Assembly (NCBI RefSeq): GCF_009937955.1
Contig: NZ_AP018439.1
Coordinates: 620,001-684,000 of the forward strand
Length of the DNA: 64,000 nt
Direction of reading: 5' to 3'
Origin: Undibacterium sp. KW1
GTDB lineage: Bacteria > Pseudomonadota > Gammaproteobacteria > Burkholderiales > Burkholderiaceae_D
The notes under the pieces were generated by a model. The model saw only the letters and a list, made by a program, of their open reading frames with translations, made no database searches and was not told the origin of the DNA. A program made the translations under genes and the position numbers. Positions 1,187 through 24,118 of the stretch are shown here, in pieces (within the stretch, counting starts at the first letter, position 1; each line of letters starts with the position of its first letter).

Positions 1187-1273
1187 CTTGGTTTGGTCGC
1201 TTGTCTGTGCTTATCTGTATTTGCTTTGTTTCTTATTGTGCCTGCTAAGGCTCAAACTAATTTGTCGCCTGCA

Positions 1274-2803: not shown

Positions 2804-2928
2804 ACTTGAGCGTTTCTTTAAATGGCGGTGTGCAAGGTCTTAAACATCAATCAGGGCGCATCGTATCCATCTCAGACACTCGCGCCCCCTGTCTACAAAT
2901 AACAAATCTGGTCAATGGCTACCCGGTA

Positions 2929-4245: not shown

Positions 4246-5175
4246 TCAAGCAGCTTTCCTGACCGCCATGAAGTCCAGCACTTGCTGGCGCTGCGGTATG
4301 GATGTCTGTGCACCCAGCTTGGTGACAGTCAGTGCTGCCGTGTATTGCGCTTCACGGCTGGCATCAATGACGCTGAGCCCGTTTGCCAGGCCAACCGCAA
4401 AGGCGCCGACAAAAGTGTCGCCAGCAGCAGTGGTATCCACCACATCAACCTTGACTGCCGGGATGAACTGGCTGCCTGTGCTTTCAGTGATCAATGCGCC
4501 GTGCTCACCCATGGTCAGCAAGACTGTGCCCGTACCACGTTGCAAGATTTGTTCCGAGGCTGCTTTGGCGCTGGCCTGATCGACAACCGTTACACCACTC
4601 AATTGCGAAGCTTCAGTTTCATTCAGGATCAGGTAATCAACCTGGGCCAGCAATGCATCGCTCAGGTCTTGTGCCGGGGCCGGGTTCAAAATCACTTTAA
4701 CACCTTGGGCGCGGGCGATTTCTATCGCGCGGGTAACAGTAGGAAGTGGGGTTTCGAGCTGGCAAACCAGCAATTGCGCACCAGCGATGGTGGCAGTGGC
4801 TGCCTCAACCTGGGCCGGGGTCAGTGTCGCATTGGCGCCTGCCGCCAGGACGATGCTATTGTCACCGCCATCTTCTACCAGGATGCCTGCGACACCTGTA
4901 GCAACACCCGCTACCCGTGCCAGGTGGCTCAGGTCTATGCCTTCGGCAGCCAGGCAATCATGCGAAAAACTGCCAAAACCATCATCGCCTACTGCGCCGA
5001 TAAAACTGACCTGCGCGCCCTGGCGGGCAGCGGCTACCGCCTGGTTGGCCCCTTTGCCACCGGGAATCTGACAAAATTCGTGACCATGCAGGGTTTCGCC
5101 CAGTGCCGGCATGCGCGGCGTGCGAAAAACCAGATCCATATTGACACTGCCGACTACAGTGATGCGTGGCTTCAT
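4246..5175 (-). CDS. rbsK: Ribokinase
   Basis: PfkB-family kinase that phosphorylates D-ribose to ribose 5-phosphate. The N-terminus MKPRITVVGSVNMDLV and the substrate motif GGKGANQAVAAARQG are characteristic, and the C-terminal DTTAAGDTFVGA carries the catalytic aspartate and anion hole. I start at the ATG at 5175 (309 residues) because family members begin there and a GAGAA ribosome binding site precedes it; an upstream in-frame codon would add 15 unrelated residues. It is first in the operon with the BMP-type transporter, which suggests that the imported molecule yields free ribose. Confidence 0.93.
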   Translation of the reverse strand: MKPRITVVGSVNMDLVFRTPRMPALGETLHGHEFCQIPGGKGANQAVAAARQGAQVSFIGAVGDDGFGSFSHDCLAAEGIDLSHLARVAGVATGVAGILVEDGGDNSIVLAAGANATLTPAQVEAATATIAGAQLLVCQLETPLPTVTRAIEIARAQGVKVILNPAPAQDLSDALLAQVDYLILNETEASQLSGVTVVDQASAKAASEQILQRGTGTVLLTMGEHGALITESTGSQFIPAVKVDVVDTTAAGDTFVGAFAVGLANGLSVIDASREAQYTAALTVTKLGAQTSIPQRQQVLDFMAVRKAA

Positions 5176-5203
5176 GATGCTTGTTCTCGGTAAAAAGTTG
5201 TCG

Positions 5204-5229
5204 CGCAATCGTTTGCGCAATCGATTTCG
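5204..5229 (-). promoter_or_regulatory. Two overlapping LacI-family-type operators
   Basis: Two 14-bp palindromes with a central CG, CGCAATCGTTTGCG (5204-5217) and CGCAATCGATTTCG (5216-5229), lie 12 bp apart centre to centre, just downstream of the predicted -10 box of the rbsK-transporter operon. Each has one symmetric mismatch pair. Central-CG palindromes of this kind are bound by LacI/RbsR/PurR-type repressors. No LacI-family gene lies inside the window. Confidence 0.6.
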
Positions 5230-5230
5230 T

Positions 5231-5259
5231 ATTTAACTATGGAGCCTGTTTAACGTCAA
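5231..5259 (-). promoter_or_regulatory. Sigma-70-type promoter of the rbsK-transporter operon
   Basis: On the minus strand, -35 TTGACG (5254-5259) and -10 TTAAAT (5231-5236) are separated by 17 bp. The start site would fall within or beside the palindromes at 5204-5229, a classic repressor-blocked layout. Confidence 0.6.
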
Positions 5260-5428
5260 GCGCAATCTGATTTTTTGGTCAAAATTTGTGCAAAATCGCG
5301 GCGGGCAGGCAACCATTTTATGAATATTGTTTTCAGTCTGTTTTGCTGGCATCTTCAGCGTAGGAATTTGTTGCATTGCATCAGATCATCGCGCAATGAT
5401 AAATATCATTATTGCCAGAGAATTTCAT

Positions 5429-5626
5429 CTAATTTGCCAGCGCGGGCTGATTGTGGGGCTGTCGCGGGTGGATGTCAAATTTGGTTAGCCGTGGAGGCAG
5501 GGGCTGGGCGCAGGCGTAAATCTGGGTTTGTGCTTCAGGCTTGATCTCAACACCAACAAGCTTTTCACTTTCCAAATAAATCGATTCAGCCAAGGGATAC
5601 GTCGAAAATTGTGATAAATGGCTCAC
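5429..5626 (-). CDS. Small ORF of unknown function, possibly coupled to the gene upstream
   Basis: A 65-codon frame with a GTG start that overlaps the stop of the preceding frame as GTGA. The first half (SQFSTYPLAESIYLESEKLVG) has ordinary protein-like composition; the second half is rich in P, Q and H and looks less coding. It could be a short real protein coupled to the upstream gene, or a chance frame. I recognise no family. Confidence 0.25.
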   Translation of the reverse strand: MSHLSQFSTYPLAESIYLESEKLVGVEIKPEAQTQIYACAQPLPPRLTKFDIHPRQPHNQPALAN

Positions 5627-6002
5627 TTTTGCTCAAGTGCGTCCAACCTGGCTTGTATTATCTTTACCCGTTCCGGATAGCGATCTCCATCGATGCGGCC
5701 AAGAATTCGTTTTAATTGCATTGCATCGTAGTTGGCAAAATTGGGTGCCGATAATTTCTCTCGTTCTTCTTTTGCTTTTCCCCGTGGTGAAGTCAAAGCC
5801 CCATTCGTGTGACATTCGTCCGTCTCGGCGTATAGTTTCTTCACCCCGAATAGGAAGATAACAATTCCAATCACCACGAAGCCCAGGGCTTCCCATTGAC
5901 GCCAAGAGTTGGGTTCTGCATGCAAAAAAATAGGTATACACCCAGGCATGTCATCAGTGGACCCAACAGCCACCCGGGCAATTTTTCCCAAGGCAAAAAC
6001 AT
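5623..6002 (-). pseudogene. Small two-helix membrane protein gene with a homopolymer frameshift
   Basis: Two frames seem to encode one protein. From ATG at 6002 the first frame reads MFLPWEKLPGWLLGPLMTC and a first membrane helix, then stops early. A second frame continues with QWEALGFVVIGIVIFLFG, a second helix and an acidic/basic tail ending LDALEQK at 5623. They join in frame if the run of seven A at 5924-5930 (T on the coding strand) had one more base. Start codons for the second frame alone (TTG 5991, ATG 5949) lack good ribosome binding sites. This is a frameshift mutation, a sequencing error or slippage. Family not recognised. Confidence 0.5.
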
Positions 6003-6206
6003 GCAGAGCTCTTTCTTAAAGTCCTCGATGATGGTATTGAGTATAGCAAATGCAAATTAAACATTGAACGAAAAAACCTGCGTGCCATTTGGCTAATCTG
6101 TGCATAAGCATAAAAAACAATCAAGGTTTTCATTGGCCCACCTTGTACTTTCGCCCATAAACCCGATTTAATCCCCCAATCTATATCAAAACGGGAGAGT
6201 TCAACC

Positions 6207-6899
6207 ATGACAGCTCACATAGGCATAGTAGGCTGTTCCGCCGCAGGGGCGGCGCTTTGTTACCGCACCATCTGCGAAGAAGGGGCGGCCTTGATGGGCC
6301 CGCATGCCCATCCAGAAGTCAGCATGCATACACCTTCGCTGGCCTTGTACGTGGAATGTCTTGAGCGAGATGACAGGCAAGGCGTGGCTGATCTGATGCT
6401 GGTTTCGGCACGCAAACTGGCCGGGGCAGGGGCGGATTTTTTGATATGTCCTGACAATACGATACACCTGGCCTTTGATCTGGTACAGGCGGCTTCGCCC
6501 TTGCCCTGGTTGCACATTGCTGAAGAAGTCGCGGCTACTGCGGTGCAGCGCGGCTATCGCCGGGTAGGTATTACAGGAACAGACTGGCTCATGGGCAGTG
6601 AAGTTTATCCTGCCGTCTTGCGCAACAAGGGCCTGGATTTTGTCTTGCCAAATGCAAAAGACCGGGCGCGTTTGAACGGCATCATCATGGATGAACTGGT
6701 GTGTGGCATCATCAAGCCAGAGAGTGTGGGAGAATTTCTCACTATCATAGACAGACTCAAAGACGCTGGCTGCGATGCGGTAATACTGGGTTGCACAGAA
6801 TTGCCATTGATCGTTAATGACGACAATTCCAGTCTGCCCACTTTGGACTCCACCCGCCTGCTGGCGCGGGCAGCTTTGCGAAGAGCAATTGCCAGATAG
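6207..6899 (+). CDS. Aspartate/glutamate racemase family protein
   Basis: A 230-residue protein of the Asp/Glu/hydantoin racemase superfamily, preceded by a GGGAG ribosome binding site at 6192. The second catalytic region, ILGCTELPLI, is intact (C196). In the first region, ICPDNTIH, the residue usually occupied by cysteine just before NT is D83, with a cysteine two residues earlier (C81). Homologues such as E. coli YgeA have, as I recall, a non-cysteine residue at this position and favour one direction of reaction. The substrate is probably an acidic amino acid, but is unproven. It sits alone, with no clear pathway partners. Confidence 0.85.
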   Translation: MTAHIGIVGCSAAGAALCYRTICEEGAALMGPHAHPEVSMHTPSLALYVECLERDDRQGVADLMLVSARKLAGAGADFLICPDNTIHLAFDLVQAASPLPWLHIAEEVAATAVQRGYRRVGITGTDWLMGSEVYPAVLRNKGLDFVLPNAKDRARLNGIIMDELVCGIIKPESVGEFLTIIDRLKDAGCDAVILGCTELPLIVNDDNSSLPTLDSTRLLARAALRRAIAR

Positions 6900-7001
6900 C
6901 GGGAAGCAAGACGGCGCTTGCTCAGCCAGCACGCAAGCTCTCAACTGCCGTTTTCCTGGCACTGTTAGAATCGCAGTCCCACGACTTGCATCAACAAATT
7001 C

Positions 7002-7232
7002 ATGAGCAACGACACAGGTAATAAATTTCTATCTTTATGCCGGGCAGCCTATAAGCGCCAAGGCATGCGCATATTCTGCGCTGCGGCCATGATCGCGGTG
7101 GCTGCCTCTTACCGCAGCAAGCAGTTTGATGTGGATATCATGCTCAAATTGCTGGCGGTCACTGCGGGCTTTTTTCTGGTGGCAGTGGCGATTGAATGGC
7201 AGCGCGCGCGAGTCGCACAAAAAAAGGAATAG
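7002..7232 (+). CDS. Small hypothetical membrane protein
   Basis: A 76-residue protein with two likely membrane segments (about residues 21-36 and 47-65), a cytoplasmic-looking basic C-terminus (QRARVAQKKE) and no recognised family. It lies 102 bp after the racemase gene on the same strand, so co-transcription is possible but not required. Confidence 0.55.
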   Translation: MSNDTGNKFLSLCRAAYKRQGMRIFCAAAMIAVAASYRSKQFDVDIMLKLLAVTAGFFLVAVAIEWQRARVAQKKE

Positions 7233-7285
7233 CAAGAGCAGGGCATGCAATAGCGACTACATGCCAGCACAACGATCGATGAAAT

Positions 7286-7477
7286 CTACCAGCGTAACTG
7301 CGGCATATGGATGCCAGGCACTATACCAAAGGCAGACAGCACGATCACGATCAGCAAGACGATGAACAGCACGCGCACCACTTGTGCTACTGGTGCAGGC
7401 AAGGGCAGGAAACCAACCAGCCACCAGATCAGACCGAACACAACAAGGTAGATAATAAGATTGACGAGCTGAACCAT
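7286..7477 (-). CDS. Small integral membrane protein (Thivi_2564-like)
   Basis: A 63-residue, almost entirely hydrophobic protein with two helices separated by a short PLPAP turn (residues about 25-29). The pattern, with a second helix VLFIVLLIVIVLSAFGI, resembles the small Thivi_2564-type membrane proteins common in proteobacteria. Function unknown. Start ATG at 7477 with a purine-rich leader. Confidence 0.65.
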   Translation of the reverse strand: MVQLVNLIIYLVVFGLIWWLVGFLPLPAPVAQVVRVLFIVLLIVIVLSAFGIVPGIHMPQLRW

Positions 7478-7576
7478 GATTTACCTTTTAAAAAAACAGC
7501 GATGAAGTGACAAGCATAGGTACATCACTGACTCGTGAAACACGCGAAAATGGTGAACATATGCTTGCCTGTGGAT

Positions 7577-7900
7577 TTACTTCTGTGGCAAGACGACGAT
7601 AGTGTCACCTGGTTTGCCAGGTTCGCCAGTTTTACCTTTTTGACCGTCATAGCCTGGTGCACCTTTTTCACCTGTTGCGCCTTGCATGCCATCGGCGCCC
7701 GCAGGGCCTGTGGCTCCTACAGAGGCAGGTGTGCCTGTTGCGCCCGTGGCACCGGTAGCGCCAGTCGCTCCGGGTGCACCGGCAGGGCCGGGTACAGCCA
7801 CTGGAACTGCAACCGGCACGGCAACTTGTGCAGGTTGACGGTCACAGGCACTGGTCGCCATTACGCCAGCGAGTGTCAAAATCAGGATGGAAATTTTCAT
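7577..7900 (-). CDS. Collagen-like repeat lipoprotein
   Basis: A 107-residue protein starting at ATG 7900 (AAGG ribosome binding site; an upstream in-frame extension looks unrelated). Residues 1-18 form a signal peptide ending TSAC, a plausible though imperfect lipobox, so it may be lipid-anchored. After a [12 protein letters not shown] stretch come about 17 Gly-X-Y triplets ([13 protein letters not shown] and similar, then [13 protein letters not shown]), broken once by TPASV. Such triplets can form a short collagen-like triple helix at the cell surface. Role unknown; adhesion or envelope spacing are possibilities only. Confidence 0.75.
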
Positions 7901-8190
7901 GGGGTAGCCTTGGTTGATTAAATATCGGAACTTCATTAGCTTCAAGAGCGAAGCTGACATCCATCTGCATGCAGGCAGCGCCAGCACAGATATCGCAATG
8001 CTCACACAGCATGCGCGCAATAAAGCTGCCCATCCGTACGCTGACGAACATACCGGGCTGTTTATTTGACCTATATTGGCGATACCGGTAATACAAAGTG
8101 AAGTACAAAACTCTGATTAGCTGCACCGTAAAAGCAATTGCTGTGGCTGGCGGGGATGAAATGGATCCAAGAAATAGCTCAAAGAAGAGA

Positions 8191-8222
8191 AAAACCGCAG
8201 ACCTGTAAAGTCTGCGGTTTTT
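8191..8222. terminator. Rho-independent terminator, usable from both strands
   Basis: A perfect inverted repeat, accgcagac (8194-8202) with gtctgcggt (8210-8218) around a 7-nt loop, flanked by A and T runs. It lies just after the 3' end of the large minus-strand gene ending at 8303, which it most likely serves. Confidence 0.85.
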
Positions 8223-8227
8223 TTTTG

Positions 8228-8286
8228 TAATGACGATTGCTAATGACGATTGCTAATGACGATTGCTAATGACGATTGCTAATGAC
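8228..8286. repeat. 13-bp tandem repeat, four full copies
   Basis: The unit TAATGACGATTGC occurs four times exactly (8228-8279) and then partially (TAATGAC to 8286), between a gene end and its terminator. Copy number is probably variable between strains. Confidence 0.9.
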
Positions 8287-8302
8287 TGTTGGCTTAGTCA
8301 GC

Positions 8303-10189
8303 TTACTTGGTTTTTGCCTTCACCTGCGTTTTTGGCAAGGGGTTCAGCTCATTCCAGATATGACTGACAGTCACGGTATTACTCGTGTGGCAGCTAAAGC
8401 AATTGGTACCGCCTGCCCAGTTGATGTTCGAGCCCTGATGCACGGTTTCCATCGTGGTATTGGCCAGTCTGCTGGTACCGACCTGGTTGATGGCCGTGGC
8501 TGGTGGTTTGTCTGAATCAGGTGCGCGGCCACCCGTGGTCCAGGTTGAACCTATCATCAGGTAATTCTTGCGTACATCGCCTGGTGCCAGTTGTGAAATG
8601 ACGCTATTGTTGATCGACAACAAGTCAGTATTGGATTCAGGCGGGGTGATGACAGGGCCAGCATGGGTAGGGTCAGCCTGGCGTGGATTCTGGTCGGCTG
8701 CCGCGCCCCAGGGTTTCCAGCGTATGGTGTCATTCGGTTTGACTACGCAAGGCTTGGTCGTGTCGGTGCAAGTGATGCTATTGCCGGAAGCCTTGTACAG
8801 GGCCTGGTTGAAAGGGCCTGTTGCGCCATCCTGGCTGAACAGCCATTTACCCTTGGTGTTTTGCGGCACCAGTTTCTCTGCGCCGTTCACATCTATGTAT
8901 TTGTATTCGGCATTTGGCGTATTGTCCATGTGCTCAAAGGTTGCCCAGATCAACTCAGGATTGCCTTTTGCGCTGCCGACCACATGCGCACCGACCAGTG
9001 CCAGTTTGGTTTTTTTGTTTTTGACTGCGCCCGGTTTCAGCGATGCTGGCTGGTTGATGCTGACATCTGGTATTTCAGCATCGATGATGATGAATTTCTT
9101 TTTGGTTGCTTCATCAAAACCTGTCGTTTCTATCCATGCCAGCTTGACTTCAACAGCCAGCGCTTCTGGGGCTGCCAGGTCACGCAGTCCGGCTTTCTTG
9201 GCATAGGCAACCACGTCGGCCAATTCTTGTGCAGTGGTTGGATACATCAGGTTTGCCGGTGCATTCGGTTTTCTCTGCGTCAGGAAGTAGGCGAACAAAT
9301 CATTCGCGGCTATCGAGTAATACACCAGCGAACCATTTTGTGCGACCAGCACATTGCTGCCACCTGCCTGGCCTATGGTCATATCGACTTCATTACCTGC
9401 TGCATCCAGATAAATCAGGCCACCCTTGGCATCCCGCTTGAAGCTTTGCACGATATTGCTGTCGGTACTTGCCGCGGTCAGCAAGGCAGTTTGCTTTTTG
9501 GGCAGGCGCGCACGCAGGTTGGCAGCCAGATCAGTTTCTATCTGCTTGCCACCCTTGGCCAACAGGATGACCTTGCCAGTTGCACCTACTTCAGCATGAT
9601 CTATTTCTACCGTTTTACCAGCCTTGTTGAGCGTGGTTGCCTTGCCACTCGGTGCCAGCTTGGGCGGCAAGACTTCAAACAATTTGCCTGACTTGTCAAA
9701 TGCCACAGGCAGATTATTCGGCCCCAGTTGCCGCAGCAAAGGGCTGAAGTTCATTGCCTGCCTGGTCAGTTGTGGTATGAAGTTGCGCGCTCCATTGGCG
9801 GCTGGTGATACCCCATAGAAAGCTGAAGAAGAGAAGATATGATCGCCACCAGAGAGCCCTTTGGGTGTGGGTGAAGTCAGCCATAAAAACATCTGGTGTG
9901 ACCATTGATAAAAACTGCATGCCGACGCATCAGCAAAATTCACGCTGTCGGCAGCTTTGACCAGGCCACCGTTGGTAACACCGGCGGGCTCAAACCATTG
10001 CGCGAATGGAATTGGCGCCGGCCCACCGGGATTAGCCGGGGTAGAGGTAGTGCAGGTCGGCTTGGCATCCGGCGGCAGGATTTGTGCTTGTGCCAGCGGA
10101 CACAGGCAAGCCGTAGCCAGTAAAGAAATGCAGGTAGTCAGTTTCACTGCGTGGGCAGGCTTGCGCTGCTTGCGGTCAGACGTGTTCAT
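8303..10189 (-). CDS. Large exported protein with a single C-terminal haem motif
   Basis: A 628-residue protein with a long signal peptide (cleavage near AQA, residue about 36) and a secreted-type, repeat-poor body. Near the C-terminus is CFSCH (C597-H601), a CxxCH covalent haem c attachment motif, in the context GGTNCFSCHTSN. This suggests a periplasmic or outer-surface mono-haem protein. The body contains a VWWS-free, beta-rich sequence I do not recognise, including possible lipid- or sugar-binding segments (FAYFLTQRKPNAPANLMYP). No cytochrome partners or maturation genes are adjacent. Electron-transfer or oxidase-linked function is inference. Confidence 0.75.
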   Translation of the reverse strand: MNTSDRKQRKPAHAVKLTTCISLLATACLCPLAQAQILPPDAKPTCTTSTPANPGGPAPIPFAQWFEPAGVTNGGLVKAADSVNFADASACSFYQWSHQMFLWLTSPTPKGLSGGDHIFSSSAFYGVSPAANGARNFIPQLTRQAMNFSPLLRQLGPNNLPVAFDKSGKLFEVLPPKLAPSGKATTLNKAGKTVEIDHAEVGATGKVILLAKGGKQIETDLAANLRARLPKKQTALLTAASTDSNIVQSFKRDAKGGLIYLDAAGNEVDMTIGQAGGSNVLVAQNGSLVYYSIAANDLFAYFLTQRKPNAPANLMYPTTAQELADVVAYAKKAGLRDLAAPEALAVEVKLAWIETTGFDEATKKKFIIIDAEIPDVSINQPASLKPGAVKNKKTKLALVGAHVVGSAKGNPELIWATFEHMDNTPNAEYKYIDVNGAEKLVPQNTKGKWLFSQDGATGPFNQALYKASGNSITCTDTTKPCVVKPNDTIRWKPWGAAADQNPRQADPTHAGPVITPPESNTDLLSINNSVISQLAPGDVRKNYLMIGSTWTTGGRAPDSDKPPATAINQVGTSRLANTTMETVHQGSNINWAGGTNCFSCHTSNTVTVSHIWNELNPLPKTQVKAKTK

Positions 10190-10516
10190 GGTTTCCCTTT
10201 CGTTGGTTTTGTTTTGATGTGTCGGTAGTGTCGGTAGTGATGCGGATTTATCCGGGTACTACCGTAACTTTCAGTGTTGGCTGGGCTGCTGCTGCCCGTT
10301 CTCATTCGCACCCTTCATCTGCATTCGAAAGATTATCATTTTTTTATTTAAAATTATAAAAAAGATTAGACTTTATGTTAATTATTGTCATTTTCTGGCC
10401 TGCTCTGCGCAACCCAAGCTTGTCGCCGGCATTCAGGTTTAAATTTAAAAACATTTGTCTCATGTTGAAAACAATTGTTTATAATGTGAAGAAATCCCAA
10501 ACCGTCAGGCAAGAAC
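10190..10516. other. Divergent intergenic region upstream of psuK
   Basis: 327 bp separating the divergent haem-protein gene and psuK. The left part is unremarkable, the middle (10330-10390) is very AT-rich, and the right end contains the psuK promoter and palindrome. No gene seen. Confidence 0.5.
10469..10485 (+). promoter_or_regulatory. Palindrome overlapping the -10 box of psuK
   Basis: The 12-bp perfect palindrome AAACAATTGTTT (10469-10480) abuts a consensus -10 TATAAT (10480-10485), 32 bp before the psuK start. The -35 is weak (TTGTCT at 10455, 19-bp spacing), consistent with a regulated promoter. The HTH domain of PsuK itself is a candidate binder; this is inference. Confidence 0.5.
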
Positions 10517-11608
10517 ATGACAGCAACACCATCCAAAAAAGAACAGCTCTACCAGCTCATCGCTGCCCAACCTTTTATCTCGCAGCAAGAGCTGGCAGAC
10601 CAGCTAGGTTTGTCACGTTCTGCCGTGGCTGGGCATATCGCCGCGCTGATACGAGACAAGCGCTTGCTGGGCCGGGCCTATGTCTTGCCAGACCAGCGAC
10701 CAGTCGTATGCATAGGCGGGGCAAATATAGACCGCAAATTGCGTACCCTGGGGCCGGTGCAGATGGGTACCTCGAACCCGGTCAGCCAGCATGAAGCTTT
10801 TGGCGGTGTCGCCCGCAATATTGCCGAGAACCTGGCACGCCTGGGCATGCCAACACGCCTGTTGTGCGCGGTGGGTGACGATGCCGCCGGGCGTAGCATG
10901 CTCGATCATGCGCAATCCGTAGGCATAGATGTCAAAGCCTGTCTGCAGGCGGCTGGAGTGCATAGCGGCAGCTATACTGCCTTGCTCAATGATGAGGGCG
11001 ACATGGTGCTGGCATTGGCCCACATGGAATGCTGCGATGCCCTGACACCGGATTACCTGCACAGTCGCCAGACCCAGCGCGGCCACGCCGCTTTCACCAT
11101 CATCGACTTGAATTTACCGACAGATAGCATAGGCTTGTTATTACAAGAAGCGCATCAACAGGCGATGCCGCTGATGGCGGTTGCTGTGTCTGAACCCAAG
11201 ATGGCACGCCTGCCGCAGGATTTGCATGGCTTGCGCCTGCTGTTATTGAACCAGGGCGAATTCGCAGCTGCTGTCGGACATGGCATTCAAAGCCAGGCAG
11301 AACTGGAAGCAGCCTGCAAACAATTGCAGCAGCGTGGCGTGCAGGACATCATCGTCACCAAGGGCGTGGCAGGCGTAACTTTTACTGGCAGCAGTGGCAT
11401 GCAGCACATGCCTGCGCCATCAGCCAGTGTGCGCGATGCCACAGGTGCGGGCGATGCCTTTGCCGCAGGCGTAGCCTGGTCTTTGTGTAGCCAGCCAGAC
11501 GATCTGCGCCTGGCCTGTGAATATGGTTTGAAGCTGGCGAAACTGACGCTGGAAAGCGATGCGACAGTGGCGGCAACGATCAGCCCGACTATTTTTGAAG
11601 AAGCTTAA
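10517..11608 (+). CDS. psuK: Pseudouridine kinase with N-terminal helix-turn-helix
   Basis: A 363-residue PfkB-family kinase. Residues 1-60 form a winged HTH (QQELADQLGLSRSAVAGHIAALI), followed by the kinase domain from VVCIGGANIDRKL (about residue 63) with GGVARNIAENLARLG and the catalytic DATGAGDAFAAGVAW near residues 309-323. It phosphorylates pseudouridine to its 5'-monophosphate. The assignment is secured by the next gene, psuG, 52 bp downstream. The HTH-kinase fusion is known in PsuK-like proteins and suggests that the enzyme also regulates its own operon. Confidence 0.9.
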   Translation: MTATPSKKEQLYQLIAAQPFISQQELADQLGLSRSAVAGHIAALIRDKRLLGRAYVLPDQRPVVCIGGANIDRKLRTLGPVQMGTSNPVSQHEAFGGVARNIAENLARLGMPTRLLCAVGDDAAGRSMLDHAQSVGIDVKACLQAAGVHSGSYTALLNDEGDMVLALAHMECCDALTPDYLHSRQTQRGHAAFTIIDLNLPTDSIGLLLQEAHQQAMPLMAVAVSEPKMARLPQDLHGLRLLLLNQGEFAAAVGHGIQSQAELEAACKQLQQRGVQDIIVTKGVAGVTFTGSSGMQHMPAPSASVRDATGAGDAFAAGVAWSLCSQPDDLRLACEYGLKLAKLTLESDATVAATISPTIFEEA

Positions 11609-15840: not shown

Positions 15841-15891
15841 TGCCGGAAAAGCGGATTGATACTTGCGGTTCCGGCAGGTGACATTTTCCGG
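15841..15891 (+). promoter_or_regulatory. Leader with two mutually exclusive hairpins before the retron operon
   Basis: One arm, TGCCGGAAAA (15841-15850), can pair either with TTCCGGCA (15869-15876) or with TTTTCCGG (15884-15891). The second pairing covers part of the Shine-Dalgarno sequence of the first gene (GGAG at 15890-15893), so the leader could switch translation. A weak -10 (CATAAT, 15821-15826) lies upstream. Confidence 0.35.
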
Positions 15892-15900
15892 AGCATGGCT

Positions 15901-18900
15901 ATGCAAGGCATGATTAAAATGGTGAAGCTGGTTCGCACATCGCCCACAGAGCGGCATTGCGAAATCGAGTTGTCACAGGCACCGCAGGGTGAGGGTGCGA
16001 CCCCCTTATATCTGGTGAATGTGCGTGAAGGTCATCCTGATGCTGAATGGCAGGAAAGCACGAGGACCCCTTTCCCTGTCGCCCTGGGTCAGGCGCAAGT
16101 TTTGTATGCCCAGGTGTTAGCCAGCAAGCTCGAACAGGGTTTCGTGGATACATCTGTACCTCCATCCATTCCAGTTACTCCAGCAGCACAGGACCAGGTC
16201 AAGGCTGATGCCATGCAATGGGGCCACTCGTCGCAAACCCTGGTGCAAAAAATCAGTAAACCAGCCTCTGTATCCGGACAAGAAAAAATCCTGCTTGATC
16301 GCCTGCCGCCGCGCGCCTGGTCTGGTATGTCCAGGGCAGAGCGTACCCGCACTGTCTGGCGCATAGGCGAGCGCCGCCTGTCTGCCGCCGTGCCACGCCT
16401 GGTAGAACTATTGGGCAGCGCCGATGCCATGCTTGATTATTGCGTCGCCTATGCCATAGGGCGTTGCGGTGATGCCGGTGCCAAACAGGCCATGCATGAG
16501 CTGAGCCAGCGTTCCAAAGACGCGCATGTCAACCACATGGCGCGGCAAGCTTGGCTGGCATTGGCGACACCAGAAGAAGCACAGCAGTTTGCCCAGGATA
16601 TGATCACGCAATGGCCAATAGAGCTGCTTGCGGCCTGGCAAAAGGCGCAGCAGGCAAGGGACTTGCAAAAAGGCATGGATGAAGTCCTGCTGGCCTTGCT
16701 GTCTGCCAAGTCATGGGGTGCTTGGCGTCATGATGACTGGCTGGAGCAACTGGACATGATAGACCAGGCAGGCATTTCTTCACTGGCGCGGCATTTGCTG
16801 TTGCAGCAGTTGCGCAACCTGCCAGTGAATCTGCTGGTGTTCCGCGCCTTCCGCCATTTGTACAAAACTGCAGAATTCCGCGCCGATGCAGAACTGTTCG
16901 GCATCCTGCATCAGCGCTTTGAAAAAGCCTGGCCTTTGTTTTTGCTCAGTTCCAATACCAGCTATGTATATCTGGAAAGACGTTACGTCAGTTATGCCGA
17001 CGAAGTCAAAAAAACGAATACCCGGGTCGCCTATTCCAGCCTGACCCGTGATTACCTGCGCCGCCGCACCTGGCGCACATTGCGCCGCCTGGGCGAGCTG
17101 GAAAGTGCCGATTTCACCAGCATGGCAACGGGAGTATTGCTGGCCTGCGATGATGCCCATGCTGACAAGGCACACATACAAAGACTGGTTAACTGGAATT
17201 ACCAAAGCCGTTCTTACACGACAGAACTGCGCTTTCTTTCACCCTATGCCAGCTGGATGGTATTCAACCAGCTTGTGCACCAGCATGATAGCGACGTCAA
17301 GACCAGCCGTACCGCACTCAAATGGTGGATACCCGCAACGACAGATAATCTCGATTATCCACCGCGCACGAAACGGCAGGAAGCTTTCCCAAAACTATGG
17401 GATGCCGTACCAGAAAAATTGCTCTATCTGATGCAACACAGCCAGTGCCTGGGCGTACATGTATTTGCTGCCCGTGCCCTGGTGGATAACCAGGCTTACT
17501 GCCAACAATTGAGTGTGGAGCAGTTGCAGGGCTTGCTGCAAAGCGCCTATCTGCCGACCAAAGAATTTGCTTTTACCATCGTCAAGCAACGTTTTGCACA
17601 GCAAACGCCAGACCTTAACTGGCTGATGATTTTGCTGGCAACGGATTATCAGCCTGCTGCTGATTTTGCGCTGGGCTTTATCCGCAAGACGCCAGAGCTG
17701 TATGCGCAAGACGCTGGCCTGATCGTGGCGATGATCACCAGCCCGTCACAAGGCGTGCGCGAAACTTGCCGTTTGCTGGCGCATGCTACAACTGCTGCGA
17801 CACGGCTGCTAATCTTGAGCCGCCTGTCCATCTGGGCAAGGCAGACCACCATGGCGGCAAACCAGATCGACACTTTGCGGGATGACTTGCAATGGCTGAT
17901 CCAGCATGTGCTGGCAGAACAAGTCGCGCAATTGCCAGACCAGGATATTGCCTTCTGGTGTGATCTGCTGCAGTCAACGAACTTCTGGCAACAGGCGCTG
18001 GCGACCGATATCTTGCTGGCCCACCCGGCTGGCATCGCCCATGTTTCGCCGCTGACACTACGTGATTTATTGCAGGACGCTGATCCCGGCAGGCAAAGCC
18101 TGGGCAGCCGTTTGTTTGCGGCCTTGCCCGCCGACGTATTGCGCCAGCAGCCTGATCTGGTCGCGACCCTCGCAACAGCGCTGGATGCGCGTGTGCGGGC
18201 GGCCATGACACCGGTGATTACCCAGCTCGCTACAGATGCGACTTTTTCTGGAAAATTGCTGGCACACTTTATCGACGTCATCTTCCGTAGCGATAATACT
18301 GATGGTGAAGAGAGCGTACATGCCGACATCATCAACTGGTGCAGTGGCCCTTTGCTCACAGCAATAATGGCGCAGCCTGCGGATATGCAATGGCGTTTGT
18401 TGCAGGCCCGCAGCAAGGGGGCGCAAGAATTGGGTGCCATGCTGTTGATACAGGCAAGCGGCACATTGGCTGCCAGCCTCAGCGTCCTGCAATGGGCCTT
18501 GCTGGGCAGGCACGCCGTCTTGCAAGTGCGGCTGCGTGCCCAGCATTACTTCAACCAGCATGTGCCTGAAGTGCGCGCCAGCCTCAACGATGCACTGCGC
18601 ATACTCGATACCCGCTGGCCAGAAACCCGCTCTTTTGCGGCTGACTATTTTGCCCGCAATATCAGTGCTGACGAATGGTCGCTGGCCCAGTTGCTGGCTT
18701 TATGTGACCATCAGCAAGCTGCCATACAAAGACTGGGCAGGCAATTGATTACCCGCCATTTCCGTATGGAAGACGCCGCCGAATATGTATTGAGCCTCGC
18801 CCAGCATCCATCAGCCAACATGCAATTATTTGTCAGCCAGTGGCTGGAGCAAAGTGTGCAGGCATATGATGATATGCAGGCAGCACTTCATCATCTTCAG

Positions 18901-19206
18901 CAACTGCGCCCTTATTTTCTCAGTGTGCTGTCACATGTGAACAAGGCGCGCACGGTCAAGAACCGCGTGATCCGTTTCCTGCAGGATCAGGGTTTGCTGT
19001 CTGAAGCACATGCGCAATTTGTCGCACAGATTTTCACGCGTCAGGTATTGACCGTAGCGATACAGGACAAGGCGCAATACATTCTGGGCCTGACGCAATT
19101 GCAGGCAGCGTATCCGGCACTGGCTGAATCAGCCGACTGGCCCATGCAGCTCGTTGCTCCACGCCTGCATCAAGATATAGCCACCATTTCTGCGGAGTCT
19201 GTATGA
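15901..19206 (+). CDS. HEAT/ARM-repeat protein of the retron operon
   Basis: An 1101-residue cytoplasmic protein. I start at ATG 15901 because GGAG lies 7 nt upstream; TTG 15856 and ATG 15895 are worse spaced. The first 90 residues may be a WGR-like domain, though the WGR triplet itself is not visible. From about residue 140 it is almost wholly alpha-helical, with HEAT-like units such as AAVPRLVELLGSADAMLDYCVAYAIGRCG. No catalytic motif seen. It overlaps the SWIM gene in an ATGA junction, and the retron RNA and RT follow. As I recall, an ARM-repeat protein plus a WH-SWIM protein defines type XIII retrons; its role would be effector scaffold or sensor. Confidence 0.8.
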   Translation: MQGMIKMVKLVRTSPTERHCEIELSQAPQGEGATPLYLVNVREGHPDAEWQESTRTPFPVALGQAQVLYAQVLASKLEQGFVDTSVPPSIPVTPAAQDQVKADAMQWGHSSQTLVQKISKPASVSGQEKILLDRLPPRAWSGMSRAERTRTVWRIGERRLSAAVPRLVELLGSADAMLDYCVAYAIGRCGDAGAKQAMHELSQRSKDAHVNHMARQAWLALATPEEAQQFAQDMITQWPIELLAAWQKAQQARDLQKGMDEVLLALLSAKSWGAWRHDDWLEQLDMIDQAGISSLARHLLLQQLRNLPVNLLVFRAFRHLYKTAEFRADAELFGILHQRFEKAWPLFLLSSNTSYVYLERRYVSYADEVKKTNTRVAYSSLTRDYLRRRTWRTLRRLGELESADFTSMATGVLLACDDAHADKAHIQRLVNWNYQSRSYTTELRFLSPYASWMVFNQLVHQHDSDVKTSRTALKWWIPATTDNLDYPPRTKRQEAFPKLWDAVPEKLLYLMQHSQCLGVHVFAARALVDNQAYCQQLSVEQLQGLLQSAYLPTKEFAFTIVKQRFAQQTPDLNWLMILLATDYQPAADFALGFIRKTPELYAQDAGLIVAMITSPSQGVRETCRLLAHATTAATRLLILSRLSIWARQTTMAANQIDTLRDDLQWLIQHVLAEQVAQLPDQDIAFWCDLLQSTNFWQQALATDILLAHPAGIAHVSPLTLRDLLQDADPGRQSLGSRLFAALPADVLRQQPDLVATLATALDARVRAAMTPVITQLATDATFSGKLLAHFIDVIFRSDNTDGEESVHADIINWCSGPLLTAIMAQPADMQWRLLQARSKGAQELGAMLLIQASGTLAASLSVLQWALLGRHAVLQVRLRAQHYFNQHVPEVRASLNDALRILDTRWPETRSFAADYFARNISADEWSLAQLLALCDHQQAAIQRLGRQLITRHFRMEDAAEYVLSLAQHPSANMQLFVSQWLEQSVQAYDDMQAALHHLQQLRPYFLSVLSHVNKARTVKNRVIRFLQDQGLLSEAHAQFVAQIFTRQVLTVAIQDKAQYILGLTQLQAAYPALAESADWPMQLVAPRLHQDIATISAESV

Positions 19207-20861
19207 AGTTTGAATACCGCTATTTTGGCAATAGCCAGGTGAATGACAGCGCCACTGCCACCAGCTTGCAGTTCGCGCCTGACACTTTGCGCACACCCAC
19301 GTATTTTTCCGCCACCCTGCAACCCACGCTGGCGCTGGCTTACCGCGAAGCGATCAGTGCCATGCATGATGTGGTGGTGTCTGATCTGCGCACCCAGCCC
19401 AAGGACAGGACGGCTTACTTCGCCTGGCTGGCAGAGAATGAGGCCAGCCTGCTGGCAGATTTCATGGCACAGGAAAAAGAGCTGCGCGAAAAGATCACGC
19501 CGCTCCGTGCAGAACTGACCAAGGTGCAGAATCAAAAATATAGCCTCATGCAACCTTTCTACAAGGCGCAGCGCGAATACTTTGATTACCTGTACAAAGA
19601 AAACCGCGACATGTGGATCGTCCTTGACCCTGTCATCACCGTGCATCCCGACAAGGTGTTCTTTGAATGCTTCAGCCGTGATGAATCAACTTATGCCAGC
19701 CTGAGTTGTCGCCACAGTGTATTCAAACATCTGGGTGAATTTGCCTGCGGTACTACGAATATTGATTATTCGTCTGCGCTGTATGAAGAGTTCCAAAAGA
19801 TACGCGCCTATAAAGAAACCCGTTTTGAAATCCAGGCCGATGGCTTCCAGGTGCAAACCGGTCATGACGAGCAATACCATGAGGCCAAGATAGACTTGCC
19901 AGACAGCTGGATGCGCGGTTTTTTGCAAGTCAGCACTGCTATGTCCATGCCTGCCCACAAGCTCGATTTGCACCCCATGGATGTGCATAGCATCTGCCAC
20001 ATCCTGCGCCGCAAGACTGAGCGGGTAGGGCCGCGCTCGATACGCTTCATCCTTGAGCCGGGTAAGCCCATCACCATGCTGTTTGAGCCATGGGGTATCA
20101 AGCTGGTATGTCAGCGTTCTGTCTTTACCGGCAAAGAGGCCGCAGAGGTCAGGATATGGGGCCGCCGTCGCTTGCTGACACTGGAACGCCTGATCGCAGT
20201 CGCCGACAAGTTCAGCGTCATGCTCATGGGAACAGGTTTGCCCAGCTTCTGGATCGCCCATCTGCCTGACATGGATTACACCCTGGGCTTATCTGGCTGG
20301 ACAGCCAATGACTGGTCACGCGCCGGGCAATTTGATTTGCTGGCACCGCGCCTTGATGTTGATGACACGACGGCACAAGCCGTGGCACATGCCTTGTCTT
20401 CGCAATGGTCAGCCAGCACCGCCAGCCTGGCGCAGCAATTGCAACTCGACAGCAAACTCGTGGCATCTGCCTTGACCGGCCTCATGCAGGCAGGCCGCGT
20501 CGTCTATGACGCGGTGGATCAGCTAGCCCGCTGGCGCGACCTGGTGCGCGAACCCATCAATGTTGCCAGCCTGCGCTTTGCCAGTGAACGTGAAGCGCTG
20601 GCCGCACAACTCGTGCATAAAAACCTTTTGCTTGATTTGCAGTCTGCCCGCGTCGCCGGTGGTGGCATCGAATGGAAAGCCAGTGTCAGCGCGAGTATCA
20701 CGAATACCAAGAAACTCAGCAAGACCATGATCAGGCTGGACAACGATGACAGGCTGGTCGAAGGCAATTGCAGTTGCGATTACTACGTGCGCAACCGTAT
20801 GTTCCGTGGGCCTTGTGAACATATGCTGGCTATCAGGCAAGTAGCCAATAGCAAGCAGTGA
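19203..20861 (+). CDS. Winged-helix / SWIM zinc-finger protein of the retron operon
   Basis: A 552-residue protein ending in a SWIM zinc finger: C523, C525, C538, H540 in the pattern CxCx12CxH. Before it, residues about 395-450 look like a winged helix (SLAQQLQLDSKLVASALTGL, then MQAGRVVYD). The N-terminal 350 residues are unrecognised. SWIM fingers bind DNA or proteins, so the msDNA is a natural ligand. Its start overlaps the stop of the HEAT-repeat gene, so the two are translated together. The retron non-coding RNA begins about 50 bp after its stop. E. coli YehQ is a distant relative by domain content. Confidence 0.85.
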   Translation: MKFEYRYFGNSQVNDSATATSLQFAPDTLRTPTYFSATLQPTLALAYREAISAMHDVVVSDLRTQPKDRTAYFAWLAENEASLLADFMAQEKELREKITPLRAELTKVQNQKYSLMQPFYKAQREYFDYLYKENRDMWIVLDPVITVHPDKVFFECFSRDESTYASLSCRHSVFKHLGEFACGTTNIDYSSALYEEFQKIRAYKETRFEIQADGFQVQTGHDEQYHEAKIDLPDSWMRGFLQVSTAMSMPAHKLDLHPMDVHSICHILRRKTERVGPRSIRFILEPGKPITMLFEPWGIKLVCQRSVFTGKEAAEVRIWGRRRLLTLERLIAVADKFSVMLMGTGLPSFWIAHLPDMDYTLGLSGWTANDWSRAGQFDLLAPRLDVDDTTAQAVAHALSSQWSASTASLAQQLQLDSKLVASALTGLMQAGRVVYDAVDQLARWRDLVREPINVASLRFASEREALAAQLVHKNLLLDLQSARVAGGGIEWKASVSASITNTKKLSKTMIRLDNDDRLVEGNCSCDYYVRNRMFRGPCEHMLAIRQVANSKQ

Positions 20862-20914
20862 TGACAAGCAGTGAGAGACCCAGCATTACAAGTTTTTACA
20901 TCGTAGTTATTTAC

Positions 20915-21181
20915 AGGAGGTGAGCAGGACATTAGAATAGATTTTGGCAGGAAGGCTCTTGCAATCCGGATGGTGTATCGCCATCCATGTTTTTTGCTTA
21001 GCTATGCATCACTGAGTTTCTCTTCACTGTGCCGGAAACGACTACCGGCGTGATGACGATGTGGATTCCGTGAACCCCATCACGCCGGTAGTCGTTTCCG
21101 GCGTCGAGTGGAGCCTCTCAGTCTGAAGGCTCTTCGATGAGCTTCCTGCCGCTTTCCCTTCTTTTGTCTGGCTCACCGTTT
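20915..21181 (+). ncRNA. Retron msr-msd non-coding RNA
   Basis: A region without a gene that folds in the retron plan. The ends pair as a nested a1/a2 helix: 20919-20930 with 21166-21177 (12 bp, one mismatch), AGAA/TTCT in between, and GGCAGGAAG (20946-20954) with CTTCCTGCC (21142-21150), extendable to 21139. Inside, an msr-type hairpin GGATGG/CCATCC (20968-20973, 20981-20986, loop TGTATCG) resembles the second msr hairpin of retron Ec86 as I remember it. Then comes the msd: ACTGAG/CTCAGT (21011-21016, 21117-21122), CTTCACT/AGTGGAG (21022-21028, 21107-21113) and a perfect 25-bp stem (21031-21055 with 21078-21102) with a 22-nt loop. G20961 just after a1 is a candidate priming guanosine. The RT gene follows. 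Confidence 0.88.
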
Positions 21182-21268
21182 TTGATTTATTTGGAAAACG
21201 TGAATTCTTTTGTCGCTCTTTGATATTTGCTGATACCAGCGCGCCAAAAGAAAACAGAGACCAGCGTC

Positions 21269-23212
21269 ATGACACAACAACAGCAAGCATCTGTACAAAA
21301 CGCATCTGACAAACCCCTGTCACAGATGACACGCGATGAATTGTATGCCCACCTGCGCACGACCACCAAAGATGCCGTGGTCTTGCAAGAGATGCGCCGC
21401 CTTGGCTTCTGGCCTGCCGATAGTGGCAAGCCATCGGTGACCGACGAACTCATCACACGCGAAGCTGCACTCAGTAAAGAATTAAATGACTTGACGGCCC
21501 AGTTACGCCGCGTGCAAGACCCCAAGGCAGCCCTGCGCGACATGCGCAAGCAACGCATGGCAGCAGCAAAAGAAAAGCGCGAACTGACCAAACAAAAACA
21601 TGCGCAATTGCGCCACGCCAGGGCACTGGCATGGCAAGAAAAACGCCAGAACGACATAGGCTATCTGGGCGACGGCGTTTCCACTGGCTTGAATTACACC
21701 AGCACCAATACCGAAAAGCTGGCGCGTTATCAATTGCCCGCGCTGCAAAAGTCGCTGGACCTCGCAACGGCGATGGGCATACCACTGGCCGAATTGCGCT
21801 TCATGAGTTTCCAGCGCAAGGTCAGCCAGGTCAGTCACTACCAACGATTCGCCATTCCCAAAAAGACTGGTGGTCAGCGTTTTATTTCTGCCCCCATGCC
21901 GCGCCTCAAGCGTTGCCAGTACTGGGTGCTGGATCACATCCTCGCCAAAGTACCTTGCCATCCTGCTGCCCATGGTTTTTTGCCGCAACATTCCATACTC
22001 AGCAATGCCTTGCCGCACGTGGGGCAGGCCGTAGTCATCAACCTTGATTTGAAAGACTTCTTCCCCAGCATAGAATATCCACGCGTCAAAGGTGTTTTCA
22101 AATCACTGGGTTATGGCGACCAGATTGCGACCCTGCTGGGCCTGCTGTGTACTGAACAGGCAACAGAAGAAGTGCGTGTTGATACGCAAACATATTTTGT
22201 CGCTGGCGAAAAACGCAGCCTGCCACAAGGTGCGCCATCCAGCCCGATGATCACGAACATCTTGTGCCATACCTTGGACAAGCGCCTGCATGCGGCAGCG
22301 ACCAAGCTGGGTTTTGTATATACCCGTTACGCCGATGATCTGACGTTTTCCAGCAAGCAAAAAGAACGCCCACCGGTCGGCAAACTCCTGTGGCGCGTCA
22401 AACAGATCATCGCCGATGAAGGCTTTACCCTGCATCCCGACAAGCAGCACATCATGCGTCACAGCCAAAAGCAGGAGGTCACCGGCATCGTCGTCAACCA
22501 CAGCCCGACGATCGATGCCAAGACCCTGCACCGCTTCCGCGCCACCTTGCACCAGGTAGAAAAAAATGGTCCGGCTGGTTATCACTGGAATGGCAATACC
22601 GATGTCTTGTCAGCACTGGAAGGCTATGCCCGCTATGTCTGCATGGTCAATCCTGTAAAAGGTAAACCATGGCTGCAACGCATTAAGGCTTTGCGAGCGC
22701 AATATGCAGAGCAGTCAGCAACCCCGCAGTCAGCATTACGTCCGGTAAGGCCTACGCTACGCCAGCAAGTCGCCAGCGGCAAGACACCGCAAAGAGCAAA
22801 CGGCCAGGACTGGTGGCAAGTACAGCAAGCCGCTGCCCCCGTGCTGGAGCAAACTGCGCAGCAAGTGGCGGAAGAGAAGAAGGCTGTAAAACAAGCTGCG
22901 AAGGAAGAAAAGAAAGCTGCGGCAGCACCCAAAGCCTGGCAATTTGATAGCGCAAACAATAATGGCAATCAGGCAGCCAACGCGGCAAACCAATATACTG
23001 CGGCAGAAAAAAACAAACTCAGCAAGCGCCTCTATGGCACGCTGGGCCGCGTCTTTCAGGTTCTTTTGTGCACTATATTTTCAGCCAGCCTGCATAGCCT
23101 ATATCCGCTGACATTTGGCATCGCATTGGTTTCCTTGAGCCTGATCACTGGCCGCAGCAGCCTGGTGTGGGTCATGGTGATGCTGGCTTTGAGTGTGGTT
23201 TTGTTGAGTTGA
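21269..23212 (+). CDS. Retron-type reverse transcriptase with C-terminal membrane helices
   Basis: A 647-residue protein from ATG 21269 (an upstream in-frame TTG at 21227 is unlikely). Residues about 20-125 are charged and coiled-coil-like. The RT domain (about 190-450) has retron features: NALPHVG (NAxxH type), NLDLKDFFPSI with the first metal-binding aspartate, QGAPSSP, catalytic YADD (Y354-D357), and VTGIVVN. It should copy the msd part of the RNA just upstream into branched msDNA. After a K/A/Q-rich linker (about 545-580) come two hydrophobic helices near the C-terminus (LVWVMVMLALSVVLLS at the end), so the protein may be membrane-tethered, which is unusual for a retron RT. Confidence 0.9.
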   Translation: MTQQQQASVQNASDKPLSQMTRDELYAHLRTTTKDAVVLQEMRRLGFWPADSGKPSVTDELITREAALSKELNDLTAQLRRVQDPKAALRDMRKQRMAAAKEKRELTKQKHAQLRHARALAWQEKRQNDIGYLGDGVSTGLNYTSTNTEKLARYQLPALQKSLDLATAMGIPLAELRFMSFQRKVSQVSHYQRFAIPKKTGGQRFISAPMPRLKRCQYWVLDHILAKVPCHPAAHGFLPQHSILSNALPHVGQAVVINLDLKDFFPSIEYPRVKGVFKSLGYGDQIATLLGLLCTEQATEEVRVDTQTYFVAGEKRSLPQGAPSSPMITNILCHTLDKRLHAAATKLGFVYTRYADDLTFSSKQKERPPVGKLLWRVKQIIADEGFTLHPDKQHIMRHSQKQEVTGIVVNHSPTIDAKTLHRFRATLHQVEKNGPAGYHWNGNTDVLSALEGYARYVCMVNPVKGKPWLQRIKALRAQYAEQSATPQSALRPVRPTLRQQVASGKTPQRANGQDWWQVQQAAAPVLEQTAQQVAEEKKAVKQAAKEEKKAAAAPKAWQFDSANNNGNQAANAANQYTAAEKNKLSKRLYGTLGRVFQVLLCTIFSASLHSLYPLTFGIALVSLSLITGRSSLVWVMVMLALSVVLLS

Positions 23213-23220
23213 GTAGCCCG

Positions 23221-23297
23221 GTAGGGTGCGCCGTGCGCACCGTCTTTGAATAACAGCAATCGTATTTTTCAACGATGGTGCGCACGGCGCACCCTAC
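23221..23297. repeat. REP palindrome, family 1, copy 1
   Basis: Inverted repeat: GTAGGGTGCGCCGTGCGCAC at 23221-23240 pairs with its complement ending at 23297, around a 33-nt middle containing AACAGCAATCGTATTTTTC. It is immediately downstream of both the RT gene and the transposase gene, which converge on it, and may act as a terminator. Confidence 0.9.
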
Positions 23298-23307
23298 TAT
23301 CGGTGAT

Positions 23308-23853
23308 TTATTCACCAAAATCATGATACTCATTCATTGATGTGCTAATTCCCCACTCTGGTGACAATATTCCTTCTTTGACGTAGCGATGAAATGTGGA
23401 GTAAGACCAATCCCCTGCGCGTTTAACCAAATCATGCTTGACTGGATTCCAGTGAATGTAATCAACATGTCTGGCGAAATCTTCGTCATCCCGGATTTGA
23501 TGTTCCCAGAAACGACGTTGCCATATTCCGGATTCTCTTCTTGATGTACGGGACGAAGATAATTCTTCTACACCGAAATTCTTAGCGCACGCTTGCGTTA
23601 CCAGTCGTTTGATCATAGACCAGCGCATGGAGAAATCTGCATCGTCTTGAGGTAAAGTCCAGATGCAATGCAAATGATCGGGCAGTAATACCCAGGCATC
23701 AATCTCGAAAGGATGTGAAATGCGGGTTTGTTGTATCGCTGCGCGCAATGATAGCCGTATCGCAGGCTTGGTCAATATTGGTCTTCGGTGGAGGCTGGTT
23801 AAAGTAAAAAAATAACTTGCGCCTTTAATTCGCGACCGTCGATAGTTGGGCAT
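23308..23853 (-). CDS. REP-associated tyrosine transposase (RAYT, Y1 family)
   Basis: A 181-residue TnpA_REP/Y1_Tnp protein. It begins MPNYRRSRIKGASYFFTLT, carries the HUH metal motif in LLPDHLHCIWTL (HLH) and the conserved YIHWNPVKHDLV with the catalytic tyrosine region near residues 131-142. RAYTs nick REP hairpins with a single tyrosine and spread them. It is flanked by family 1 REP elements on both sides (23221-23297 and 23883-23958), the usual arrangement for an active or recently active RAYT. Confidence 0.93.
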   Translation of the reverse strand: MPNYRRSRIKGASYFFTLTSLHRRPILTKPAIRLSLRAAIQQTRISHPFEIDAWVLLPDHLHCIWTLPQDDADFSMRWSMIKRLVTQACAKNFGVEELSSSRTSRRESGIWQRRFWEHQIRDDEDFARHVDYIHWNPVKHDLVKRAGDWSYSTFHRYVKEGILSPEWGISTSMNEYHDFGE

Positions 23854-23882: not shown

Positions 23883-23958
23883 GTAGGGTGCGCCGTGCGC
23901 ACCGTCTTTGAATAACAGCAATCGTATTTTTAAGAGTGGTGCGCACGGCGCACCCTAC
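23883..23958. repeat. REP palindrome, family 1, copy 2
   Basis: Same arms and almost the same middle as the copy at 23221-23297, with one small difference (TTTTTAAGAG instead of TTTTTCAACGA). It sits just upstream of the RAYT start, so the gene is bracketed by REPs. Confidence 0.9.
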
Positions 23959-24039: not shown

Positions 24040-24118
24040 GTAGGGTGTGCCATGCGCACCATTTTTTTGATCAACAGCAATCGTATTTTTCAACGATGGT
24101 GCGCACGGCGCACCCTAC
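24040..24118. repeat. REP palindrome, family 1, copy 3
   Basis: Left arm GTAGGGTGTGCCATGCGCAC carries two changes relative to the other copies; the right arm (to 24118) is unchanged. About 80 bp of unique sequence separates it from copy 2. Confidence 0.88.

Follow-up and report, generated by a model that had tools for sequence, protein, structure and literature searches.

What does a retron do when neither protein encoded beside its reverse transcriptase (RT) is recognisable as an enzyme? The question is raised by a locus in a 64,000-nucleotide stretch of Undibacterium sp. KW1 DNA (the window), part of a two-contig genome in which its contig measures 6,557,365 bases. An enzyme domain usually gives a retron effector its name; in type XIII retrons, to which this locus belongs, none could be recognised here. 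We tentatively propose that the RT and its predicted multicopy single-stranded DNA (msDNA) restrain a two-protein effector built on a predicted PCNA-like clamp, in a complex probably tethered to the membrane through a hydrophobic tail of the RT.

Parts of the locus and its RNA

On the plus strand, the genes of a HEAT-repeat protein and of a SWIM protein, overlapping by 4 nucleotides (nt; ATGA), are followed by a 407-nt gap containing a structured RNA and by the RT gene (Table 1). The PADLOC models of type XIII retrons (WGR_XIII, SWIM_XIII and RT_XIII) match all three proteins, each with E ≤ 6.1e-187; Pfam finds RVT_1 in the RT, and HEAT_2 and SWIM below threshold. On these model matches, and on the order WGR-HEAT, SWIM, RNA, RT, the locus is a type XIII retron, a fresh instance of a catalogued type. 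The three genes keep this order in 21/21 loci compared (L052 and L053 omitted), from several genera and two classes, and the RNA sits in the SWIM-RT gap at each of 28 aligned loci. The first-pass annotation of this DNA had already described a four-part type XIII retron with HEAT/ARM-type and winged-helix SWIM proteins, overlapping genes and an RT with YADD and VTGxxVN, and the PADLOC matches, the AlphaFold2 (AF2) models, the open frames and the motifs agree with it; the clamp fold, the hydrophobic RT tail, the WGR-like start and the promoter-like boxes had escaped it. Its start for the HEAT frame, which ends at 19206, also holds: from the in-frame ATGs at 15895, 15901, 15910 and 15919, the second is the best choice because GGAG (15890-15893) sits 7 nt before it. 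The type XIII class itself was reportedly set up by Mestre and colleagues in 2020.

The gap (20862-21268) folds at −159.1 kcal/mol (z −7.34), a value as low as which was given by 0/100 shuffles. The motif CTTGCA is present in the gap at 32 of 33 loci (L041 is without it), and 28 of these 32 were aligned, the near-duplicates L029, L030, L032 and L033 being dropped. RNAalifold predicts 67 pairs, 43 of them with at least one compensating change. In an energy-free count on the same structure 94.4% of 1873 cells are paired, against 35.6-44.9% when partners are slid by 1-3 columns, a share biased towards the structure because this was derived from the same sequences. Cells with two-sided changes number 250 against 32-53 in the slid controls, an excess that is large despite the shared derivation, and all five covariation measures were reached by 0/500 shuffles. 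Chance structure is ruled out by the shuffle-fold and covariation controls. The first-pass annotation had made its reading depend on a conserved fold, and the fold stands; the limits it gave (20915-21181, 267 nt) do not, since the conserved core spans about 20945-21150 and the first 30 bases of the longer version overlap the promoter-like boxes.

Structured RNA with inverted a1/a2 arms adjoins the RT, as in a retron. A candidate branch guanosine would lie at G20954-G20955, and the DNA product, comprising the msd hairpin and the stretch to a2, would be at most about 130 nt long. Rfam gave no match at gathering score anywhere in the window. The covariance model built from the alignment, R1, recovers the RNA in 3/3 type XIII loci outside its training set (L075, L077 and L098) and gives 0/4 matches in loci that have a SWIM gene but where no RT was seen; alignment and model together describe the msr-msd RNA of type XIII and can serve to find and test other members. 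The genome was also searched for a second copy of the RNA, an idea then discarded: the single strong match is this locus and the next has E 0.11.

The promoter-like boxes were judged by consensus match and conservation. TTTACA and TANAAT are invariant in the 7 aligned loci of the genus Undibacterium, with a spacer that varies. A −10-like box lies at one of two fixed distances before CTTGCA in 29 of the 33 loci read (TANAAT at −25 in 8 genus loci, TATACT at −33 in 21 loci) and is lacking in L038, L039, L040 and L041; when the −35-like box is counted in, consensus scores range from 7 to 10 of 12, with L017 and L018 at the low end. These fixed distances, and the two boxes kept around a varying spacer, indicate that the transcript probably starts near 20945. 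An outer inverted repeat (20919-20931 / 21165-21177) encloses the RNA and overlaps the promoter spacer; the first-pass annotation had included it in the RNA. Its 5′ arm lies upstream of the likely transcript start and the repeat would form only in read-through transcripts; it appears to covary within the genus, as judged by eye. It also overlaps AGGAGGTGAG (20915-20924), which resembles a ribosome-binding site but has no start codon shortly downstream.

Table 1. Features of the retron locus, in window coordinates
Feature	Position	Strand	Basis
WGR/HEAT protein (PADLOC WGR_XIII)	15901..19206	+	PADLOC E 2.6e-265; AF2 mean pLDDT 87.8
WGR-like start (beta sheet and helix), predicted	15910..16134	+	DSSP elements in AF2 model
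SWIM protein, 552 residues (PADLOC SWIM_XIII)	19203..20861	+	Open frame; PADLOC E 4.4e-216
PCNA-like clamp fold, residues 34-367, long-helix insertion at about 60-140	19302..20303	+	Predicted model
Winged-helix region, residues 388-445, predicted	20364..20537	+	AF2 secondary structure; weak Pfam winged-helix/helix-turn-helix matches
SWIM zinc ligands C523, C525, C538, H540	20769..20822	+	Identical in 46/46 aligned homologues
Promoter-like boxes TTTACA (20910-20915), 17 nt, TAGAAT (20933-20938)	20910..20938	+	Consensus match, conservation
msr-msd RNA, conserved core	20945..21150	+	28-locus alignment, covariation, covariance model
a1 arm GGCAGGAA	20946..20953	+	Alignment, covariation; followed by invariant G20954-G20955
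msr hairpin	20968..20986	+	Helix 3: 100% of cells paired; two-sided changes in 4/8 pairs
msd long hairpin, predicted reverse-transcribed part	21011..21122	+	Helices 5-9
a2 arm TTCCTGCC	21143..21150	+	Pairs with a1; two-sided changes in 11/14 pairs of helix 1
Retron RT, 647 residues (PADLOC RT_XIII)	21269..23212	+	PADLOC E 6.1e-187
Hydrophobic C terminus, three segments, residues 592-646	23042..23206	+	Hydropathy; beyond PADLOC RT_XIII match

Predicted folds of the partner proteins and the RT tail

Much of the SWIM protein adopts a two-domain clamp fold in the predicted model, to which a predicted winged helix is joined. All four elements that are the counterparts of the channel helices have kept basic residues. 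PCNA sliding clamps, at about 6-12% identity among the matches listed, form a ring around DNA; the SWIM protein is likened to them by its predicted fold, and differs from them by the helix insertion, the fused winged helix and the SWIM finger. Since sequence homology to PCNA is not recognisable in the profile search of PDB sequences or the Pfam matches of the window protein, we call the fold PCNA-like and not a PCNA. The finger follows the pattern CxCx(n)CxH. Pfam SWIM reaches 18.9 bits in the window protein (cut-off 19.6), and PF04434 is listed for 45/46 homologues at the loose limit E ≤ 10, with a best value of 1.9e-6. Among named relatives, the SWIM protein is present at 88-97% identity in Undibacterium and in a Burkholderiales metagenome-assembled genome. 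Mobility of the locus was considered and set aside: searches with the SWIM protein gave no match in phages, one short match in viral contigs and 7 plasmid records, a single one of which, from a Methylobacterium replicon of 2.8 Mb, spans the greater part of the query.

The partner is a predicted WGR-plus-HEAT solenoid. Its AF2 model opens with a WGR-like sheet-helix unit (residues 6-80; strands 6-14, 20-28, 39-46 and 53-56, helix 64-80) and continues as a mostly helical solenoid, with small beta elements, to about residue 1078. Pfam WGR is found in 3/44 homologues at E ≤ 0.1 (best 2.9e-6), the window's own protein being without a match. The 50 Foldseek matches listed are all helical solenoids (CAND1, PP2A-A, importins, mTOR, TRRAP) with a root-mean-square deviation of at least 13 Å; therefore only the repeat type is shared with them. 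A hidden enzyme in this protein was considered and set aside, as Pfam recognises none and Foldseek lists solenoids. With Pfam applied to the HEAT and SWIM proteins and their homologues, no enzyme beyond the RT was recognised in the locus.

The RT carries NALPH (residues 246-250), YADD (354-357) and VTGIVVN (404-410); NAxxH and VTG motifs beside YxDD are hallmarks of retron RTs. A247, H250, YADD and VTG are invariant in 35/35 aligned RTs and N246 nearly so, and the profile of these 35 matches the solved Ec86 retron RT (E 1.2e-61). Characterised retrons (Ec86, Ec67, Ec78, Ec83, Eco8 and Kva2) have solved RT chains related to the core found here and, as here, an RNA with a1/a2 arms and an msd hairpin. 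The present RT differs in having an additional N-terminal part and a hydrophobic C terminus, and the locus differs in that two helical or DNA-binding-type proteins take the place of an effector recognised as an enzyme.

Beyond the RT core lie a conserved FRxxAAxGxAPWxxWWQPA motif and a linker of low complexity; the hydrophobic C terminus comes last, variable in sequence but constant in character. The PADLOC RT_XIII match stops at residue 545 of 647. With a Kyte-Doolittle mean of at least 1.5 over 17 residues, a segment is detected in the last 110 residues of 119/120 homologues (the best 120 of 6273, related to each other) and elsewhere in 2/120; residue-shuffled proteins are positive in 423/2400 cases. 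For control, a different model was used to draw retron RTs from 150 genomes of the order, and two more RT places in this genome were added. The tail is present in all three type XIII controls (L075, L077, L078) and in 0/7 others, of which L003 is a 209-residue frame and L071, L073 and L079 are flagged with stops in the matched stretch; the frames of these last three finish in sequence of the type seen at the end of L072, which is unflagged. The RT of L053/L074 was left out for a stop inside the core and L004 had no tblastn match; L002 and L072 are the same place, as are L041 and L052. The alphaproteobacterial RT of L098 has the tail. From its hydropathy, the tail is likely a membrane anchor. 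As sampled, the predicted clamp fold and the tail belong to type XIII and not just to this locus.

The PADLOC names of type XIII are silent on both features, and no description of a type XIII clamp fold or RT tail was found in the open-licence literature, which does not imply absence from print. PMC11953036 includes type XIII in the PADLOC list for a Variovorax; the accessible parts of PMC12548924 contain no mention of XIII, SWIM, HEAT or WGR, and those of PMC7159879 none of SWIM, PCNA, WGR, MolR or clamp.

Around the end of the RT gene, REP-like palindromes (GTAGGGTGCGCCGTGCGCACC) occur at 23221-23297, 23883-23958 and 24098-24118 and flank a REP-associated tyrosine transposase gene on the minus strand (23308-23853; NCBIfam NF047646, E 6.2e-58). 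The genome holds 68 copies at ≤ 1 mismatch, against 0 for the reversed control, and the palindrome pair directly after the RT stop could act as a terminator. Elsewhere in the genome, a second retron-like RT of 524 residues (PADLOC RT_other, E 6.8e-143) lies at 6929-8503 of L055 (G000:C1:5738000-5753000); it has no hydrophobic tail and stands directly downstream of a gene that by eye resembles glutathione S-transferase.

Proposed action and rival explanations

Characterised retrons are phage defences, and the type XIII retron would likely guard the cell against phages. The recognised parts all point to nucleic acid: the msr-msd RNA, the clamp fold, the winged helix, the zinc finger and the WGR-like unit. 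In our tentative model, the RT would make msDNA from 20945-21150, and RT, RNA and msDNA would bind the WGR-HEAT/clamp-SWIM pair and hold it inactive, with the hydrophobic tail of the RT probably holding the whole complex at the membrane. Damage to the msDNA or to the complex by some phage function would free the pair. The WGR and HEAT parts would then guide the clamp-SWIM protein as it closes on DNA, and replication or transcription, of phage or host, would be stopped so that the infected cell yields no phage. Restraint until infection is proposed because of the analogy with other retrons, and the simplest reading of a clamp-fold effector would be a road-block on DNA. A bolder version, in which type XIII is a membrane-tethered immunity whose RT-anchored msDNA complex at the inner membrane, upon infection, frees a PCNA-fold, SWIM-tipped clamp placed on DNA by WGR-HEAT to stop replication, we regard as doubtful.

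Several points weigh against the proposed restraint of a clamp-fold effector: (i) msDNA production, binding, toxicity and phage protection are themselves predictions; (ii) clamp domain 1 is the less certain one in the AF2 model, with pLDDT blocks of about 39-88 between residues 131 and 230, and a ring of the modelled SWIM protein is hypothetical; (iii) the search for a sequence-level link to clamps came out negative, with no PCNA chains in a profile search of PDB sequences at E ≤ 1 and no clamp families among the 7 Pfam families of the window protein, or among the 25 listed of 46 Pfam families of the 46 SWIM homologues, at E ≤ 10; (iv) with the stricter setting of 19 residues and 1.6 the tail count falls to 110/120 (elsewhere 0/120), and the tail might instead form a soluble surface for packing or for oligomers; (v) the divergent, type XIII-like locus L052 (G736, 1255-10826), in which a repeat protein of 2149 residues, judged HEAT-like by eye, is encoded with a SWIM protein and a 432-residue RT whose ATG comes 3 nt after the SWIM stop, has no R1 RNA and no hydrophobic RT tail; and (vi) the site is mostly fixed and its flanks are no obvious defence island, which fits a housekeeping role equally.

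The last point leads to the serious rival, a host system of DNA maintenance or repair in which the clamp-fold protein and its WGR/HEAT partner act at breaks or forks with the msDNA as signal or decoy. WGR and PCNA folds occur in DNA repair and replication, and the locus is inherited at one site within the large-genome Undibacterium group, whose five other loci retain the upstream neighbours in 5/5 cases and the downstream ones in 4/5 (the contig of L009 ends). A clean empty site was looked for in G041, a large-genome relative with no RT_XIII match, and could not be read, because a distance of about 0.6 Mb separates the best matches of the two flanking genes (identities of 71% and 49%). SWIM proteins that have a DUF6493 protein as neighbour, and near which no RT was seen, also occur in this genome and on plasmids of Streptomyces, Diaphorobacter and Asticcacaulis, the three plasmid loci each having been read over about 19 kb of annotation; such a SWIM protein therefore works without a retron somewhere. 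The pair in this genome (L054, G000:C1:4143000-4158000) occupies 6938-11123, the SWIM relative preceding a DUF6493/DUF7824/DUF7825 protein; its neighbours resemble, by eye, genes of acyl-CoA metabolism and sensors. The SWIM members of these pairs are homologous to the retron SWIM protein (profile columns 139-546, hhalign probability 99.9, E 1.7e-34), and in both settings a SWIM gene adjoins one large gene; the pairs differ in having no R1-type RNA and the reversed order, SWIM first. A link between the WGR-HEAT and DUF6493 proteins was rejected, their profiles showing no similarity (probability 0.4). PADLOC SWIM_XIII also matches the three RT-less SWIM proteins tested and therefore does not by itself prove a retron.

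Against a repair role stands, besides what characterised retrons do, the patchy presence of RT_XIII, found in 8/43 genus genomes at E ≤ 1e-100 and in 29/371 family genomes at E ≤ 1e-120; a phylum sample gave 6/397 at E ≤ 1e-100, this genome included, one of the six (G064) having no SWIM_XIII match and not being type XIII. The G040 locus (L056), of the same genus, has none of the flanking genes. Moreover, in 170/171 pairs from 19 loci the HEAT protein has a lower identity than either the SWIM protein or the RT core (means of 74.9%, 91.8% and 90.9%, respectively, in the six large-genome-group loci, the window and L005-L009), and this faster divergence of the HEAT partner suits conflict. Repair is, in our estimate, rather unlikely.

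To a similar degree improbable is that the SWIM finger or the winged helix binds the msDNA and the WGR-HEAT protein is toxic, the clamp fold being a mere scaffold that does not encircle DNA. The invariant CxC/CxH ligands speak for this, and the clamp could be a structural relic because its sequence is not recognised in the PDB and Pfam searches; the lack of a recognised catalytic domain in the HEAT protein, the basic residues kept in all four channel-helix equivalents, and the conservation of SWIM over HEAT speak against it. That the RT and RNA form a retron beside two unrelated upstream genes is very improbable and already disfavoured, since the promoter-like boxes belonging to RNA and RT are outweighed by the single gene order across genera and classes and by the treatment of the three genes as one system in PADLOC.

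An RT-msDNA complex that restrains a clamp-fold effector stays our tentative reading. If the bolder, membrane-tethered version were true, retrons would gain their first effector with a clamp fold and their first RT anchored in a membrane, and the effector would be drawn from a wider clamp-SWIM family that also works without RT beside DUF6493 proteins. The predicted clamp and the likely membrane anchor of the RT provide two concrete, testable parts for type XIII. Together they suggest a defence that would clamp DNA instead of cutting DNA or degrading metabolites.

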